Program-made: the position numbers and the translations under genes | IMG/VR virus record: IMGVR_UViG_3300028394_000001 | Coordinates: 62,001 to 126,000 of that record | From: a virus | Reading direction: 5' to 3' (one strand) | Length of the DNA stretch: 64,000 nt | The notes under the pieces: generated by a model | What the model was told of the DNA's origin: nothing | Database searches by the model: none | What the model saw: the letters and a program-made list of their open reading frames with translations, nothing else | Part shown: positions 1,611-9,296 of the stretch, piece by piece | Layout of the letters: each line of letters starts with the position of its first letter | Position numbering within the stretch: position 1 is the stretch's first letter

Positions 1611-1618
1611 TATAAATA
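1611..1618 (+). promoter_or_regulatory. T4-type late promoter TATAAATA
   Basis: An exact match to the T4 late promoter -10 octamer TATAAATA, in the 57-nt gap after the phosphodiesterase gene and 43 nt before the next start. It marks the beginning of a long co-directional run (1661-9296) that looks like virion or late genes. Confidence 0.7.
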
Positions 1619-1660: not shown

Positions 1661-2107
1661 ATGAAAACTTTTATTTCCTTCTTAAAAGAAGAAGCGGAGC
1701 CAGAAGGTTCGGCTTTAAAGCATATTCACCATGCGGAAGACCGTCCGTTAATGCACGGCGCCGAAGGGTTTGAACATGCACATGGTGCTTTAATGCAGGC
1801 TCACGAACACGTTAAAGCCAAAGCAAATAGCAGCAATCTAACCATGAAATATGATGGTTCACCTGCAATTGTCTTTGGTCACCATCCAAAAACAGGTAAA
1901 TTCTTTGTTGCAAGCAAGTCAGCCTTCAACAAGACTCCAAAAATTAACCACACAGAAAAAGATGTTGACAAGAATCATGGTCACGCACCTGGACTTGCAT
2001 TAAAACTTAAAGCTGCTTTGAAACATTTGCCAAAAGTTACACCAAAGCATGGTGTTTATCAAGGTGACATGATGCATTCATCAGAGGATTTACACCACCA
2101 TGACTAA
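1661..2107 (+). CDS. Ligase-type nucleotidyltransferase, N-terminal part (split gene)
   Basis: A 148-residue protein starting MKTFISFLKEE, a motif resembling the T4 capsid-targeting peptide. At residues 63-66 it has K-Y-D-G followed by SPAIVFG, which matches motif I (KxDG, lysine-nucleotide adduct site) of covalent nucleotidyltransferases such as DNA/RNA ligases. Near the end GVYQGDMM resembles motif III. The reading frame then stops, and motifs IV and V lie in the next ORF, in the +1 frame. It looks like the family phage annotators call DUF6267, usually one protein. Whether the break is real, programmed or a sequencing error is open. The protein is very rich in histidine. Confidence 0.65.
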   Translation: MKTFISFLKEEAEPEGSALKHIHHAEDRPLMHGAEGFEHAHGALMQAHEHVKAKANSSNLTMKYDGSPAIVFGHHPKTGKFFVASKSAFNKTPKINHTEKDVDKNHGHAPGLALKLKAALKHLPKVTPKHGVYQGDMMHSSEDLHHHD

Positions 2108-2855
2108 AAAAGTATCGTTTACTCCAAATACAATCACTTACACCGCGCATGGTGATAATGCTAAAAAAGTTGCTGCGTCTAAGGTTGGTGTAGTGGTTCA
2201 CACAAAATATCATGGTTCCGATATTGGTACTATGTCTGCACACCACGATGTTGACCACCACAACTTTAAACAACATAAAGATGTTCACCATCATGGTGCA
2301 GAACATGATACTGCAAAAGTTGATTATCCATCTCATGCACAGGATGAATTTCATAAACACATGGCAGCTGCAAAAGAAATCCATGATACACACGGATCAA
2401 AAATGTATCATGCAACAGCAAAACACAGAGGTGAAAATACACATCTGACAACCTACATCAACAAAACCGTTGACACCGGTGAAGTTCCAAATGTTTCATC
2501 ATTAAAAACTCACATTAAAACACAACACGCCAAAATGGCAGATAAAGTCAAAACCGACGCTGCCAAGAAAGCAAAAACTTCTGCGGGACAGGAACATGTT
2601 GACCATATTGAAAAGAACAAAGAACATTATCAGAATCTTCTAACAATGCACCATCATTTAGCACAAGCTAAGAACACTCTAGTTAAACACCTAGAAGGTC
2701 ATGAAGGACATTATGAACATCACATTGGTGGTGTTAAATCTAAACCCGAAGGATTTGTGGTTCACCATACTCCAGAATCTGGAAAAACTGAACCAACAAA
2801 GTTAGTAAATAGAGCGGAGTTCGCAAAACAAAACAGATTAAAAATCAGAAAATAA
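2100..2855 (+). CDS. Ligase-type nucleotidyltransferase, C-terminal part (split gene)
   Basis: A 251-residue ORF overlapping the upstream one by 8 nt (ATGACTAA) in the +1 frame. Its first residues (KKVSFTPNTITYTA, then VGVVVHTKYHG) read as the direct continuation of the upstream protein. Residues 216-221 (PEGFVV) match motif IV (EGxV), and TKLVNRAEF at about 233 matches the motif V lysine. The stretch at about 45-115 is His-rich and probably an insertion. An AGAGGA ribosome-binding site 11 nt before ATG 2100 allows separate initiation. The catalytic centre would need both polypeptides, or a +1 frameshift at GAC-TAA. Confidence 0.65.
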   Translation: MTKKVSFTPNTITYTAHGDNAKKVAASKVGVVVHTKYHGSDIGTMSAHHDVDHHNFKQHKDVHHHGAEHDTAKVDYPSHAQDEFHKHMAAAKEIHDTHGSKMYHATAKHRGENTHLTTYINKTVDTGEVPNVSSLKTHIKTQHAKMADKVKTDAAKKAKTSAGQEHVDHIEKNKEHYQNLLTMHHHLAQAKNTLVKHLEGHEGHYEHHIGGVKSKPEGFVVHHTPESGKTEPTKLVNRAEFAKQNRLKIRK

Positions 2856-4607
2856 ATGAAATCCTTTTTAGAAGTTATACAAGAAAAAGCATCTGGTGAT
2901 GTTCACCATGTGATGTCCTTTGGTCGGATGAATCCTCCGACTACTGGTCACCTAAAGCTTATAGACAAAGTAAAAGAAGTTGCAAAGAAACAACATGCGG
3001 ATCATTCCGCTGTGGTTGTTTCACATTCACAGGATTCAAAAAAGAACCCACTTTCTTCTCAACAGAAGATTAAACACCTGAAAAGATATTCACCTGGTAC
3101 ACATTTTGAAGCTTCTTCTAAAGAGAAACCAACATTTCTACAACATGCAGCTGAATTACACAAAAAAGGTGTGACACACTTGCACATGGTTGTTGGTTCA
3201 GACCGCGTGAAAGAAATGCACGATAAGTTACACCAATACAATGGAAATCATCCTGGAGCTCTGTACCATTTTAAGAAGATAACAGTTCATTCGGCTGGCC
3301 AAAGAGATCCTGACGCAGAAGGTACAGAAGGAATGTCTGGCACCAAGATGCGTGAACATGCTAAGAGCAGTAACTTTGGAGAATTCCGTAAAGGTGTTCC
3401 CTCTCATGTACCTGAACACCATGCAAAAGAATTGATGCATGATGTTCGCAAGGGAATGGGATTACATGAAGATTACAGTTATGGTCGCCATAAAGCAATC
3501 TTCGTAACTGGTGGTCCAGGTTCAGGTAAAGACATTATCGTCCGTGAGTGTATTGCTTCACAGAAGATTGTTGAACATAATTTCCAACAAGTTGTAGATA
3601 TTCTAAATGATAAACACAAACTTGCAATGAGATCCATGAGTCCAAAATTTGAATCCATACGCACCCGCGCACCACTAATCATTAATGGACCAGCAGACGA
3701 TTTGCAGAAAATTGGCCAAATCAAAGAAGAATTGGAAGAATTGGGTTATCAAACAATGATGGTGTTTGTGGATACAACCAATTCAGTCAGTAAAGAAAGA
3801 AACACACTATTATCTAAGATGATGATGGAATCTATTCGCCAAGAAAAGTGGCAAAAAGCACAAAAGAATGCTGAACAACTTTCTGAAATGTTTACTGATT
3901 TTGTGAGATTCGATAATTCTGGTGACTTAGAATGCAAAGAGGAAGATATTACAGAAACTTATAAACTAACAAAAGAGTTTCTATCTTCAAGCTCTATCAT
4001 TGAATCTTTACAGAACGGAAATCGTTTTAGAGGATTGTATGAAAGTTCTAAGACTAAAGTTAAAGTTTTAAAAGATAACAATAGTCCATTCATGCAAATT
4101 CAAAACAAAATGGGCAAACGGGATGATGTTCGTGATGGTGATGTAAAGTCAAATAGTACATATGCATTTAGGACATATGCGGAAGCCAATTTTAATAAAG
4201 ACAAAGAAACCGGTAAGAAAAAGACTGCATTGTCTGCCGGCCGAGTTGGTGATCCAGGTGGTATTGGTCCAACAATGAATGCTCGCACAGGTGGAGGTTC
4301 CAGTTCGGCTGGTGCTGGACTAGGTAACCAAACTTACAGTGAAGCTGAAGAATTTGATAACATAAATGTTGCCGCTGCGGGTTTAGATTCTAAACCTAAA
4401 AAAGTTAGTCCAAATCCGTTAGGTGAAAAGAAAAAACTTAAAGGTTTCAAAGAATCAGTTTACTCTGGTGAAACCGGAAATGAAATGGGAGTTGCAGGTG
4501 TTATGGGTGGTGCAATGAAAAAAGAACCTCTAGTTAAGCCTACAGATAAATACATAAAAGCGGGTATTACAACTAAAACACAAAAGAAAAAATTGGGAGC
4601 CAAATAA
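2856..4607 (+). CDS. Nucleotidylyltransferase fused to P-loop kinase-like domain
   Basis: A 583-residue multidomain protein. Residues 1 to about 200 form a HIGH-type nucleotidylyltransferase: [16 protein letters not shown] carries the (H/T)xGH signature, VVGSDRV lies mid-domain and SGTKMREH matches the ISSTxxR motif, as in NMN or phosphopantetheine adenylyltransferases. From about 210 a second domain carries Walker A GGPGSGKD and resembles zeta-toxin/kinase P-loop proteins. The last 200 residues are low-complexity and Gly/Lys-rich. The N-terminus [12 protein letters not shown] resembles a capsid-targeting peptide. Late position and neighbours suggest a packaged or late enzyme acting on nucleotide cofactors; the substrate is not determined. 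Confidence 0.75.
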
Positions 4608-6154
4608 TGTTTACTAAGAATAGTGTTTCACAATCAATGATAAGCGCAGTTGAGTCTGTGTTGGCTGAAGATAAGAAGTTGCTCCTTGAACCTGATGCTG
4701 AGAAAAAAGGCCGCAAAAAGAAAGATGGAGTTAACGAAATGGACAAGAGCCAAACACCTCCAGGTCGTGACGGTGGTCATCGTCCTGGTGGTCCAGACCG
4801 GTATGTAAAGCCAATAACAAAAGAAAAAATGGTCAAACACGCTCTTGACATTCTTAGTAAATCAAATGCTAAAAAAGATGACAAGAAAGATGTGAAAGAA
4901 GAATTAAAAGGTGACCAACACAAGTTGGACAAGAATCACAACGGTAAATTGGACGGCCAAGATTTCAAATTACTAAGAATGAAAAAAGAAGGCGTCCTTG
5001 ATTCAATTAGATCCGGTACAAGAAAAGTTATGAATAAAGTTGCTCCAGGTGACGATAAGTTACTAAGTAATTTAGAAAGAGACACTGGTGGTAAGCGTCC
5101 TAATATGTACAACAAACCCAATGCTGGGCCTAAAACTGATGATAACTTCCGTGCATATCTTGCTTCAAAGAAAAATAAAACAAATGAAGAAATTGAAACT
5201 GTAGAAGAAGGTTCGTCCGCTATCATGAACAGGACGAGGAGTAACCTTAAAAGCGACTCAAATGTTGATATGAAAAAACACATTGGTGCTCAGGCTGACA
5301 GACATGAAAAACTCATGAACGCGAAACATGATGACCACATCCACAACATTCACCAAGACCAAAAAAGACGAGAAATTGATACAGATTTTCACGCTAAAAA
5401 AAGAGAAATAGAATTAAAGCATATGGAACATGGCCATCCTCACGATGTAAATTTAAATGATATGGTTCCAGCAATAGTTCATAGATACAAAAATTACGGA
5501 AAAACAAATGAAGGACTTGATCCAGTTGGCAAAGAAGATGACGATGTTAATAACGACGGCAAAACAGATAAATCAGATGACTATTTAAAGAATCGCCGTA
5601 AAGCAATTTCCGCATCAATGAAAAAAGAAGAAGTTGAAGAACTTGATGAATTGTCAAAGTCCACTCTTGGTTCGTATGCTAAGAAAGCATCCCGTGATGC
5701 TACAATTATGCGTAAAATTGGAGCAGATTTTGAAAACAGGGCTGACAGAGCAAGAAGTCCAGGTATGAAAGATTCCAACACTCAACTATCCAGTAAATAT
5801 AAACAAACGTCTTGGAAACGCAGAGACGGTGTTGAAAAAGCAATTGACCGTTTAACCAAAGAAGACATTGGTGCAATGCAAAGTGTCGTTGGCGAAAACA
5901 AAGGTAAGAAATCTGTAAGAGTGGATACACTTAAAGGACCTACAATCTCTAATGATCCGGAAGTGAAAAGTGCAAATGCTCATTTTTCCGGTAAAGCAGC
6001 AACATTGAAAGCTGAAGGTAAAGGCACAGATACTGCTGTACCTTTTGTTACCGATTCTGCAACACACAGAGAAATCAATAAAGCTGTTAAACCTACATTC
6101 AAGAGAATCAAAGAAATGTTGGGTAAAACAGGAACTTCGGAAGAAAAAAAGTGA
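4607..6154 (+). CDS. Lys/Asp-rich late protein with EF-hand-like loops
   Basis: A 515-residue, strongly charged and probably largely disordered protein. It has two calcium-loop-like segments: [13 protein letters not shown] (about 108-120) and [14 protein letters not shown] (about 310-323), both following the DxNxDGxxxxxD pattern of EF-hand/dockerin loops. A module at about 45-86 ([12 protein letters not shown] ... PDRYVKPI ... HALDILSKS) is repeated in the next gene. It also contains [17 protein letters not shown], common in uncharacterised phage virion proteins. The start overlaps the upstream stop by 1 nt. Structural role inferred from late promoter context; function unknown. Confidence 0.6.
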
Positions 6155-7524
6155 AAAATAAAAAAGATGTAATTAAGGATGTAATGAAACCTACATCTAT
6201 TTCACCAAAAAGTAGTTTTACTGACCCAAATGAACCTTGGTCAGCAAAAGCTAATGTTGCTGAAAATATTACATCAAAGCGTTCAGATTTACTGAAACAA
6301 TTTTACAAGTCAAAAGGTTGGAATGTGAATTACATTACTAAAAATAAAAGAGTATCTCAATCTAAAACTGGTGACTATGATAAATGGAAAAGAGACCATG
6401 GCATTTATGAAGATGACCAAATCGATGAAGTGTCAAATGAATTACTGGGTCGTTACAAGACTGCTGCAGGAAGTCAAGCATCAACATTAGATAAAGCTGG
6501 TGGTAAAGAAAACATTCAGAAAGCTAACAAGCGTTTCTCTGGTATTGTTAAAGCAACCAAGAAACAATTTGCAAATGATGATAAAAAACAAGGCGTAATG
6601 GAAATGGACAAATCACAAACTCCCCCAGGCCGTGATGGTCCACCAAGACCTGGACCAGACAAATATGTCAAACCTATCAGTGCTAAAAAATTTGTAAATC
6701 ATGCATTAAGCATTTTGCAAAAATCATCGCAGGCCGGGGATAAAAAGAAGGATGTGAAAGAGGCAAAAGATGCTGGTGAATATGATTATGAAGGTGCAAT
6801 GGCCAAAACACAACTTCAAACAATTTGCAGAAACGCTGAAGCTTTAAAAGATATGCTTGATGATGATGAGAATCTTCCAGAATGGGTACAAGCAAAAATC
6901 ACAAAAGCTGAAGACTATATCACAACATCACTGGATTATTTAAAATCCACCGATGAATTAGAAGAAGAAATTAGTTTAGATGAAGCTCTATCTAAAAATT
7001 CAACTGCTTACAATTGGATCCATGATTTTGTCCATTCAGACAATCCAAAGTTTGATGGAAAATCTAAAGCACAACGTATGCAAATGGCTCTTGCTGCGTA
7101 TTATGCAATGCAAAAAAGAAGTAGAACAAAAAATGAAGGTGTTGGTGACCCACAGGCAGCAACACAATCTCCAGCTGATGGTGCAAACGGAGGTGAAGAA
7201 CTCGCACCTCCAAAGAAGTCCATTAAAAGAATTGTAAAAGAATTTCACTCAGCTTCTCGTAAAGTACAAGAAGATTTATATGATTGGGAGAAAGACGATA
7301 AGGCCGCAAAGCCTTATGGCAAAAAACCAACCACACAAAAAATAGACGGTGTGAATAACATAGGTGACGATAAACCGGATGCAAAGTTGATACTAAAAGG
7401 TGGTAAAACATTGACTGGTGAACCAAGAGATACCGTTGAAATTGATCCCATGTTAAAAAATCGTAGTAAGATGCCAGACTACAAGAGTATGGACAAAATC
7501 AAGCAGAAACCACAAGAACAATAA
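6151..7524 (+). CDS. Late charged protein sharing a module with its neighbour
   Basis: A 457-residue charged protein starting at GTG 6151, which overlaps the previous stop as GTGA. Residues about 150-191 ([29 protein letters not shown]) duplicate the module of the upstream gene, so the two genes share ancestry or a common docking segment. The middle contains acidic helices and [16 protein letters not shown]. No enzymatic motif is visible. The final codons overlap a late-promoter-like AATAAATA, after which a short structural gene begins. Confidence 0.6.
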
Positions 7525-7527
7525 ATA
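7520..7527 (+). promoter_or_regulatory. Late promoter-like AATAAATA
   Basis: AATAAATA differs from the T4 late octamer TATAAATA in the first base. It overlaps the stop codon of the upstream gene and lies 31 nt before the next start, which has a strong AAGGAG ribosome-binding site at 7548-7553. Confidence 0.5.
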
Positions 7528-7558
7528 GATAGAATACCTTTCTACCCAAGGAGAAAAA

Positions 7559-8182
7559 ATGACAAACGTATGGAATAAAACCGATACCCCAGAAACACCA
7601 GGTAACTTTGGACATCCAGAGTGGCCTGTTCAACGCCAAGTTAGAACTGTTGCACAACTAGTTACATCCAATTTGACAGTTACTGGCGCAACAACGATTA
7701 AATTTACACTTCCAGCAGCTGTTTCCACTGTTGGTCTTGCCGCTGGTCAATTTGTCAATCTTCTAGGTGGTGGTTCAGCAGTTGCAAACCTTTCTTCAAA
7801 TGGTTCTCCTGGAATGTTCGTTTCGAATAACACTGTTGCTTCTGTTTCTGCAAATTTGGTTGTATTAACAACCGGTGTTACAGGAAACATTGCGGCAGGA
7901 TCAACGATTGGTTTTGATGCAGCTATTGTAAGACCTACAGGTGAAGTTTCTGCAACTTATTACGCAGATACAGTTCTTGCAACAGATTCTAGAATTACTA
8001 ATGCTAATAATAAAATTGGCGGTTCAGTCAATACAGGTTGGGTTCACGTTAGAAAGAAAACAAATGGTTTAACTGGTGAAGTTCGTTACATTAGAGAAAC
8101 TCTGGTTTGTTTGACTGATGCTTCATCCGTAAACACTGCTGGTGGTAACACTTCATGGGGTAGAGCATTCGCTAATACCTAA
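7559..8182 (+). CDS. Putative virion structural protein
   Basis: A 207-residue protein rich in Thr, Val, Ala, Asn and Gly with many beta-strand-like alternations, as expected for a small decoration, neck or tail-surface protein. The C-terminal NTGWVHVRKKTNG ... VRYIRETLV segment is typical of small myovirus structural proteins. There are no cysteines apart from one near the C-terminus and no enzyme motifs. Strong ribosome-binding site and nearby late promoter-like sequence fit abundant late expression. The exact virion location cannot be told. Confidence 0.6.
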   Translation: MTNVWNKTDTPETPGNFGHPEWPVQRQVRTVAQLVTSNLTVTGATTIKFTLPAAVSTVGLAAGQFVNLLGGGSAVANLSSNGSPGMFVSNNTVASVSANLVVLTTGVTGNIAAGSTIGFDAAIVRPTGEVSATYYADTVLATDSRITNANNKIGGSVNTGWVHVRKKTNGLTGEVRYIRETLVCLTDASSVNTAGGNTSWGRAFANT

Positions 8183-8197
8183 TGTAATCTTTTTATA

Positions 8198-8587
8198 ATG
8201 AATTTTGATGACCTAAATGAAGACAACTTTGTGATGTATGCAGTAAAATGTTATACATCACCTAGTTGTTTAATGTCTGAGTTTGAGGGAGACTTAAAAA
8301 GAACAAAATACCTAAAAAGGTTATTTCGTAGATATAAGGCAACTAAAAACATAAAAGAAAGACTAATTCTCAATCATATTATTCTCTTAAATAATGTATT
8401 CGGACCTGAAGCAACTTCCAGAATATTGTTTTTTAGAATTGATGAGAAGGATTACGATTCACTAAAGACATTTCTGTTATTCTTAAATATATTGCCAAAG
8501 GTAATAAAGGGTATAAGAGGTAAACACATAGATACAGATTTAATATCAGTAGACATGAAAATAGCAGACATACTAAGAAACATATGA
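8198..8587 (+). CDS. Conserved T4-like phage protein of unknown function
   Basis: A 129-residue protein of a family widespread in T4-like phages of aquatic bacteria (I recall it as DUF7207). It starts NFDDLNEDNFVMYAVK, then has DLKRTKYLKRLFRRY and ERLILNHIILLNNVFGPEATSRILFF, and ends in helices. The fold is probably all-alpha. It sits between a structural gene and a DUF6321-like gene, an arrangement common in related phages. No function can be inferred. Confidence 0.6.
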   Translation: MNFDDLNEDNFVMYAVKCYTSPSCLMSEFEGDLKRTKYLKRLFRRYKATKNIKERLILNHIILLNNVFGPEATSRILFFRIDEKDYDSLKTFLLFLNILPKVIKGIRGKHIDTDLISVDMKIADILRNI

Positions 8588-9099
8588 TAACATTCAAACA
8601 ATTCCTAGAAGAAAAGAAAACCCTAAGAAACACAAATCCATGTTGGACTGGTTATCATCCAATTGGTACTAAACAAAAGGGTGGCCGAACAGTTCCTAAT
8701 TGTGTTCCAGAAGAAGTGGAAGCAATGTTCGATATTATTGAAGAACTGGTCATGGAAATCTCAGAAGTACACCATATTGATCCTGAAATCATTTGGGAAG
8801 AACTTGCAGATGTATCAGATGAAGAACTATACGAATCTGCTGCATGGAGACGCAGCGAAGGTAAAGATCCTAAGGGTGGCTTGAACAGAAAAGGTATCGC
8901 ATCTTATCGCCGTGAAAATCCAGGTTCGAAGTTAAGTATGGCAGTAACTACAAAACCATCAAAATTAAAACCAGGTTCTAAAGCAGCAAATCGCCGTAAA
9001 TCATTTTGTGCTAGGATGGGCGGTATGCAAGGTGCAATGAAAAAACCTAATGGTGAACCTTCACGCAAAGCTTTAGCACTGAGAAAATGGAATTGCTAA
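8584..9099 (+). CDS. DUF6321-like phage protein
   Basis: A 171-residue protein. The N-terminus MITFKQFLEEKK resembles the capsid-targeting-like peptide seen in genes 1661 and 2856. The C-terminal half (AAWRRSEGKDPKGGLNRKG, then SYRRENPGSKLSMAV, PGSKAANRRKSFCARM and ALALRKWNC) is a highly conserved basic domain found in many myoviruses. It may bind nucleic acid. It overlaps the previous gene by 4 nt and the next by one nucleotide (TAATG). Confidence 0.65.
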   Translation: MITFKQFLEEKKTLRNTNPCWTGYHPIGTKQKGGRTVPNCVPEEVEAMFDIIEELVMEISEVHHIDPEIIWEELADVSDEELYESAAWRRSEGKDPKGGLNRKGIASYRRENPGSKLSMAVTTKPSKLKPGSKAANRRKSFCARMGGMQGAMKKPNGEPSRKALALRKWNC

Positions 9100-9296
9100 T
9101 GCAAACCTTCAAACAATTTGTAACTGAAATTGAAATAAAAGAAGACGGCATGGCTGCTGCTGGTCCAACTAATGTAGTTGGAAACGGTGCTATCGCCGGT
9201 ACAGGTGGTCCAGGTGGTGAACCTGGCGTCAATCTTAAAAAGAAAAAGAAAGTTGTTCTTCAACCAATGAGACTTAGAGCTCCACCGAGGATGTAA
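9099..9296 (+). CDS. Small Gly/Pro-rich late protein with MQTFKQF start
   Basis: A 65-residue protein starting MQTFKQFVTEIE, again like the capsid-targeting-type N-terminus, followed by GNGAIAGTGGPGGEPG and a Lys run (KKKKKVV). The start at 9099 overlaps the previous stop as TAATG; an in-frame ATG at 9087 would lie inside the upstream gene. Similar short proteins occur beside DUF6321 genes in related phages. Possibly an internal head protein; unproven. Confidence 0.55.
   Translation: MQTFKQFVTEIEIKEDGMAAAGPTNVVGNGAIAGTGGPGGEPGVNLKKKKKVVLQPMRLRAPPRM

Follow-up and report, generated by a model that had tools for sequence, protein, structure and literature searches.

At the locus lies a run of genes, all on the + strand, four of which (named here, like all genes, by their first position: 1661, 2856, 8584 and 9099) open with closely similar ten-residue peptides (Table 1). 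The window, the whole 64,000-nucleotide stretch of DNA that was analysed, comprises bases 62,001-126,000 of a 170,520-bp viral record, and the phage, which is uncultured, is T4-like and related to Kyanoviridae. Two modular proteins lacking the 10-mer lie within the run; in most relatives of one of them, 4607, the N-terminus (22 residues) is retained while the body diverges. The longest ORF for 9099 starts at 9087, four codons upstream of the tag.

Table 1. Features of the locus, with positions in the window and peptides as in the gene translations.
Feature	Position	Strand	Basis or remark
T4-late-promoter-like octamer TATAAATA	1611..1618	+	43 nt upstream of 1661; not above chance
Capsid-targeting-like peptide MKTFISFLKE (L-K-E at 8-10)	1661..1690	+	pattern match; MK[TS]FISFLKE in all split-gene relatives
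DUF6267 N-terminal half, 148 aa, motifs KYDG and QGD	1661..2107	+	PF19782 E 3e-46, profile 2-122 of 376
DUF6267 C-terminal half (251 aa; motifs PEGFV, TKLV), itself untagged	2100..2855	+	PF19782 E 3e-45, profile 132-371
Capsid-targeting-like peptide, I-Q-E at 8-10	2856..2885	+	pattern match
NadD/cytidylyltransferase-type and P-loop polynucleotide-kinase-like protein with disordered tail	2856..4607	+	PF01467, phrog_3041/395, AlphaFold, Foldseek
515-aa modular protein without the 10-mer	4607..6154	+	translation, relatives
457-aa modular protein, no tag; 61-aa segment in common with 4607	6151..7524	+	sequence comparison
Capsid-targeting-like peptide MITFKQFLEE (L-E-E)	8584..8613	+	pattern match
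DUF6321 protein, 171 aa	8584..9099	+	PF19846 E 5e-21
Capsid-targeting-like peptide MQTFKQFVTE (V-T-E, position 8 off consensus)	9099..9128	+	pattern match
phrog_3286 protein of 65 aa, in which the tag is followed by a GPTNVVGNG segment similar to the gp23 N-arm and a tail rich in lysine	9099..9296	+	

The shared N-terminal peptides and their proposed cargo

A preliminary description of this DNA had proposed that the four genes share an N-terminal motif resembling the capsid-targeting peptides of the T4 internal proteins, and all four peptides were confirmed at the gene starts. They are like the tags of T4 IPI-IPIII and Alt in being N-terminal 10-mers with an aromatic residue at positions 4 and 7, L/I at 8 and E at 10. 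Position 4 is F in all four and position 7 is F, V, F and F in 1661, 2856, 8584 and 9099, respectively. The L/I-x-E motif of the T4 prohead protease gp21 occupies positions 8-10 in the first three; in 9099 the V at position 8 departs from the T4 rule, hence this peptide is called tag-like only. We wrote the tag as M-x-[ST]-F-x-x-φ-φ-x-E, and its DNA form, ATGNNNWSNTTYNNNNNNNTNNTNNNNGAR, matches the window four times, precisely at the starts of the four genes, against 0.15 expected. None of 100 shuffled windows reached four matches, a figure that is optimistic since the pattern was composed after the peptides were known. The full 170,520-bp record contains the same four sites only, and neither its opposite strand nor a search of the whole record with the reversed pattern gave any match. 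On these counts in the window and the whole record we reject chance resemblance of the four N-termini. The preliminary description had also placed the genes behind a late promoter. The octamer TATAAATA does exist upstream of 1661, but it is no commoner than chance (six copies in the window vs 4.95 expected; one in L003 vs 1.86 expected, that copy preceding gp22), and we therefore gave it no weight as support.

The first tagged gene encodes one half of a divided protein. Both ORFs, 1661 and 2100, belong to a single DUF6267 gene and score 159 and 155.6 bits on PF19782, against a cut-off of 27. Their start/stop overlap (ATGACTAA; CACCATGACTAAAAAAGTATC) is unchanged across 17 variants; translational coupling would account for this arrangement, as would, with lower likelihood, a +1 frameshift. 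A sequencing error is ruled out by the same break in many independent contigs, and relatives with one ORF (L028, L029) suggest that the protein was originally single. In the family alignment (A4) the residues K63, D65, G66, E365, G366, V368 and K377 are invariant; at the level of sequence, K63-x-D-G, E365-G-x-V and K377 form the signature of a covalent nucleotidyltransferase of the ligase/capping type. The structural comparison with the PDB returned a DNA ligase as the top match (E 0.04), with other ligases and capping enzymes lower. Because the best match reaches just this value, we regard the ligase resemblance as a suggestive lead only. A PDB sequence search with the DUF6267 and 2856 profiles yielded nothing useful.

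The protein of 2856 carries an HxGH-type nucleotidyltransferase domain (PF01467, 31.3 bits vs a cut-off of 21). A structure search with its AlphaFold model matched NadD (Foldseek, E 3e-5), a similarity of fold that does not separate NadD from its CTP-using relatives, and the kinase domain matched Clostridium Pnkp (E 3e-5) and T4 Pnk (E 4e-4) in structure comparison. The preliminary description is to be corrected on two of the genes: 2856 is NadD-like and has a PNK-like kinase in addition, and 1661 codes for just the N-terminal part of a split DUF6267 protein with ligase-type motifs. The ligase-like 1661/2100 protein beside the kinase-bearing 2856 may point to RNA or DNA repair, and the NadD-like domain to NAD synthesis. 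Gene 8584 encodes a DUF6321 protein (PF19846, 75.5 bits vs a cut-off of 28.5), whose C-terminal domain also occurs in gp137 of phage S-CREM2, a protein detected in virions. The small 9099 protein resembles T4 gene 61.1 in layout, both having a tag (MKTFKEFIKE in 61.1), a segment like the N-arm of their own gp23 and a lysine-rich tail, with little sequence identity beyond the layout; several relatives retain the 9099 tag despite a variable insert behind it. No homologue of a T4 ip gene was found among 1661, 2856, 8584 and 9099. In contrast to T4, the cargo here consists of DUF6267, NadD/PNK-like and DUF6321 proteins, together with 9099 and its V at position 8. In the openly accessible literature we found no paper mentioning DUF6267 or DUF6321, or applying the capsid-targeting idea to cyanophage enzymes.

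Head machinery and constraint on the tag

The genome encodes the head machinery with which such a tag would operate. A gp21-type prohead protease, the enzyme that the preliminary description advised looking for, is present in the genome (PF03420, E 3e-32), and its triad-region motifs GELGHP, GVSSRG and ATAADIVADPSAP align with those of T4 gp21. A T4-type portal, gp20, is also encoded (PF07230, E 5e-178), and L003 has genes resembling gp22, gp23 and terminase arranged in order, the first two assigned from gene order and sequence. Within the first 240 residues of gp23 the sole L/I-x-E is LNE52, followed by T, near the T4 cut between FLTE65 and A. Since LNE52 lies where a head-maturation cut is expected, the T4 cleavage rule is probably valid in this phage. 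This genome is like the T4 system in its gp21-type protease with a gp22/gp20/gp23 core and in having the tag on unrelated proteins.

The N-terminal ten residues of T4 IPIII are enough to have a protein packaged, and they carry foreign protein into heads; mutagenesis assigned residues 4 and 7 to targeting and residues 8 and 10 to processing, and gp21 cuts after L/I-x-E (PMC9026906). Among 69 unique DUF6267 N-termini, information peaks at these same positions: 4 (2.90 bits), 7 (2.44), 8 (2.57) and 10 (3.02). The most conserved residues after the start Met are F4 (53/69), F/Y7 (56/69), L/I8 (57/69) and E10 (55/69), and L/I-x-E occupies positions 8-10 in 54 of the 69. This family-wide constraint supports the proposed likeness to the T4 peptides. 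From sequence alone, cleavage after E10 is likely for 1661, 2856 and 8584 and is predicted less surely for 9099; the residue following the predicted cut is E, K, K and I, respectively, and so departs from the Ala of S-SM1, S-CREM2 gp154 and T4 gp23, which counts against the reading.

Not all relatives carry the tag. Cytidylyltransferase family members are built of the 10-mer, a variable linker of 0 to ~90 residues and the conserved GRxNPPTxGH domain; the N-termini fit the tag strictly in 21 of 62 cases and loosely in 28, and others start directly at the domain. For DUF6321 the tag fits at 16/80 loci, and many short relatives are without any tag. Fusions of DUF6267 with the cytidylyltransferase (12 unique) carry a strict N-terminal tag in seven cases and one shifted by a single residue in two more, and in none of the 12 does a tag precede the internal domain. 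AlphaFold confidence is below 50 for residues 1-15 of a DUF6267 relative, the rest of the model being at about 91, and about 52 for the tag helix of 2856; these low values are as for a detachable peptide.

Tagged proteins of other phages and published virions

We scanned 16 phage records with a pattern modelled on T4, which requires aromatic residues at positions 4 and 7 and E at position 10. The scan was blind for most of them; for S-SM1, S-SZBM1, S-CREM2, HTVC008M and Melnitz some N-termini near the cytidylyltransferase were known beforehand and the rest of the genome was not. Since the pattern was applied to different phage records, these tests escape the problem of a pattern composed after the fact. 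It gave 34 matches, vs three with the reversed pattern, and in T4, the positive control, it returned exactly ipII, ipIII and gene 61.1. The S-PM2 record gave no match with it.

The single match in the whole S-SM1 genome is the start of SSM1_190, the T4-GC190 cytidylyltransferase. T4-GC190 is a cyanophage core gene, and its product was detected in purified S-SM1 virions (PMC3037559). The 2856 protein shares its nucleotidyltransferase domain and its N-terminal tag with the T4-GC190/NMNAT virion proteins of cyanophages S-SM1, S-SZBM1, S-SCSM1 and S-CREM2, and the gene is similarly placed ahead of gp61 and ribonucleotide reductase. Identity with the S-SM1 protein is about 35% over the aligned N-terminal region, and 2856 differs from T4-GC190 in its extra PNK-like kinase domain and disordered tail.

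The N-terminus of S-SCSM1_91, an NMNAT designated a virion protein, reads MKSFLQFLKE. In S-CREM2 the pattern picks out three proteins that MS detected, namely the SAM hydrolase, the cytidylyltransferase and gp136; one more match falls within nrdA. The MS-detected APH-like kinase with a GTG start (VKRFDAFLTE) and gp13 (MKDLHSFLTE) bear the tag as well, and the Cas9-like protein, also detected, has a related segment, LRFASFMAE, at residues 17-25. Virion-detected S-SZBM1_140 has a nine-residue version of the tag, MRFRQFIIE. Tagged proteins of S-CRM01 are a kinase, a cytidylyltransferase, an acetyltransferase and g33, and the virions of this phage are reported to contain a putative protein kinase. 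Syn9 gp184 and P-SSM2_194 are tagged too. On the other side, S-SZBM1_191 and _192 are tagged, yet absent from the 30 virion proteins detected, and S-SCSM1_30 is tagged yet bears no virion-protein mark. Gene 7559 showed no convincing similarity to the virion protein S-SZBM1_136.

Interpretation

We read the N-termini of 1661, 2856, 8584 and 9099 as T4-type capsid-targeting sequences on packaged proteins, with a probability of about 0.8. By analogy with T4 the tagged proteins are probably packaged in the head of this phage. The packaging that the preliminary description had supposed is well supported by inference because, in addition to the gp21-type protease in the genome and the family-wide constraint, published work has found tagged relatives in virions, among them a direct relative of 2856. 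During head assembly the tag would bind each protein to a prohead core of the gp22 type, and the gp21-type protease would cut after Glu10 of L/I-x-E, so that the freed proteins remain inside the head alongside the DNA. Such cargo would comprise the DUF6267 protein and its ligase-type nucleotidyltransferase motifs, the NadD/cytidylyltransferase and PNK-like enzyme with its two domains, the DUF6321 protein and the small 9099 protein rich in lysine. It would most likely be ejected with the genome and be active in the host without delay, with NAD or damaged RNA as plausible targets; we infer injection and in-host function by analogy with T4 and from the enzyme folds.

A rather unlikely alternative is that the tag does bring the proteins into the prohead, but that they serve in assembly (core building, DNA packaging or capsid maturation) instead of as injected effectors. 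T4 IPIII affects head morphogenesis (PMC9026906), 9099 is lysine-rich and resembles the gp23 N-arm, and the core status reported for T4-GC190 would suit such a role; against this stand the conserved catalytic motifs in two of the proteins, and the tagged SAM hydrolase, kinases and acetyltransferase of the relatives do not easily fit a role in assembly. It is improbable that the peptide is an uncleaved assembly or localisation signal for another phage structure, its T4 likeness being convergent. A short aromatic/acidic helix could have many binding partners and 9099 is off the cleavage consensus, but the exact ten-residue register, the same four constrained positions as in T4, the protease in the genome and the tagged proteins in virions of relatives all speak for the T4-type signal. 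We give even less credence to the view that the cyanophage virion enzymes are contaminants and hence lend no support to packaging. The authors of two proteomes (S-CREM2 and S-SCSM1) did raise carry-over through CsCl purification as a possibility; however, the six non-structural proteins listed for S-CREM2 virions comprise three exactly tagged enzymes, the Cas9-like protein with its related segment and two endolysins without a tag, and random contamination would not pick out tagged proteins. Common descent of the genes, without any signal, would account for similar short peptides within a neighbouring gene set, but we reject it as scarcely credible, because the four proteins come from different families and the peptide sits on unrelated domains, is missing from some members of each family and occurs once per fusion.

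With the four N-termini read as capsid-targeting sequences, the kind of tag system is known, and what is new is the cargo set and the phage group. Several proteomics papers on cyanophages could not tell enzyme cargo from contamination in the particles; a recognisable tag together with the protease turns this question into a testable prediction and provides a rule by which packaged proteins, unknown families included, can be listed from the sequences of T4-like phages. We tentatively propose, at somewhat less than even odds, that T4-like phages of aquatic bacteria share one tag-based system that loads many unrelated enzymes into the head, to be delivered as infection begins, and that the enzymes of the virion can be predicted from the tag by sequence alone; in the present phage this might be a nucleic-acid-repair or NAD-restoring kit acting before phage gene expression. 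If this is true, delivery of enzymes with the genome would be widespread among environmental T4-like phages instead of being peculiar to the T4 Alt and IP proteins. The giant phages phiKZ and SPN3US are similar in that a gp21-related protease removes propeptides from packaged proteins, and differ in that these propeptides are mostly over 100 residues long and the cut motif is S/A-x-E. The enzymes loaded by a general cargo system of this kind would include NMNAT-like and ligase-like proteins, a SAM hydrolase, kinases and perhaps a Cas9-like nuclease.

Capsid N-arm-like segments and a tagged T4 protein

Within small lysine-rich phage proteins lies a stretch that looks like the major capsid protein's N-arm immediately past the cleavage site of that protein. 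The match score was 69 for T4 gp23 (major capsid protein) against the 61.1 product (0 of 500 shuffles) and 95 for the S-CREM2 capsid protein against gp160, while gp23 of the window phage matched the 9099 protein weakly (score 38, p 0.012). Possibly these small proteins are mimics of the capsid lattice. T4 gene 61.1, a gene of unknown function (NC_000866 18966-19130), carries a perfect capsid-targeting-like peptide, MKTFKEFIKE, and its product may therefore be an unrecognised internal head protein.

Positions of proteins with N-arm-like or tag-like segments
Protein	Description	Sequence	Positions
9099	small, lysine-rich, N-arm-like segment	window	9099-9296
T4 61.1	small, lysine-rich, N-arm-like segment	L046	667-831
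S-CREM2 gp160	small, lysine-rich, N-arm-like segment	L035	24343-25236
S-SM1_197	small, lysine-rich, N-arm-like segment	L039	28705-29253
S-CREM2 Cas9/Csn1	annotated Cas9/Csn1	L045	4205-6814

Targeting-like peptides on other genes

Residues 17-25 of the annotated S-CREM2 Cas9/Csn1 protein, described in the literature as present in virions, form a tag-like LRFASFMAE|A, with a CTG codon at that place. The same ten-residue tag heads unrelated sequences in other genes adjoining the tagged families (loci L142-L300); one such neighbour, reading MKSFKDYLIEESKGSLHVFDVDDTLFHT, looks HAD-like when judged by eye.

The N-terminus of the 515-aa 4607 protein (window 4607-4669), ending in (S/D)AV(E/Q)SVLAED, is kept in most close relatives and the body diverges. 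Because of the L-A-E at its end, this N-terminus may be a head-targeting peptide of a different, longer type.

Shared and split genes of the window

The 4607-6154 and 6151-7524 proteins have in common a 61-aa segment (69% identical) that is a shuffled module. In the window lineage DUF6267 is encoded by two overlapping ORFs that meet within window 2092-2115 (ATGACTAA), and their junction is unchanged in 17 variants while third positions around it vary.
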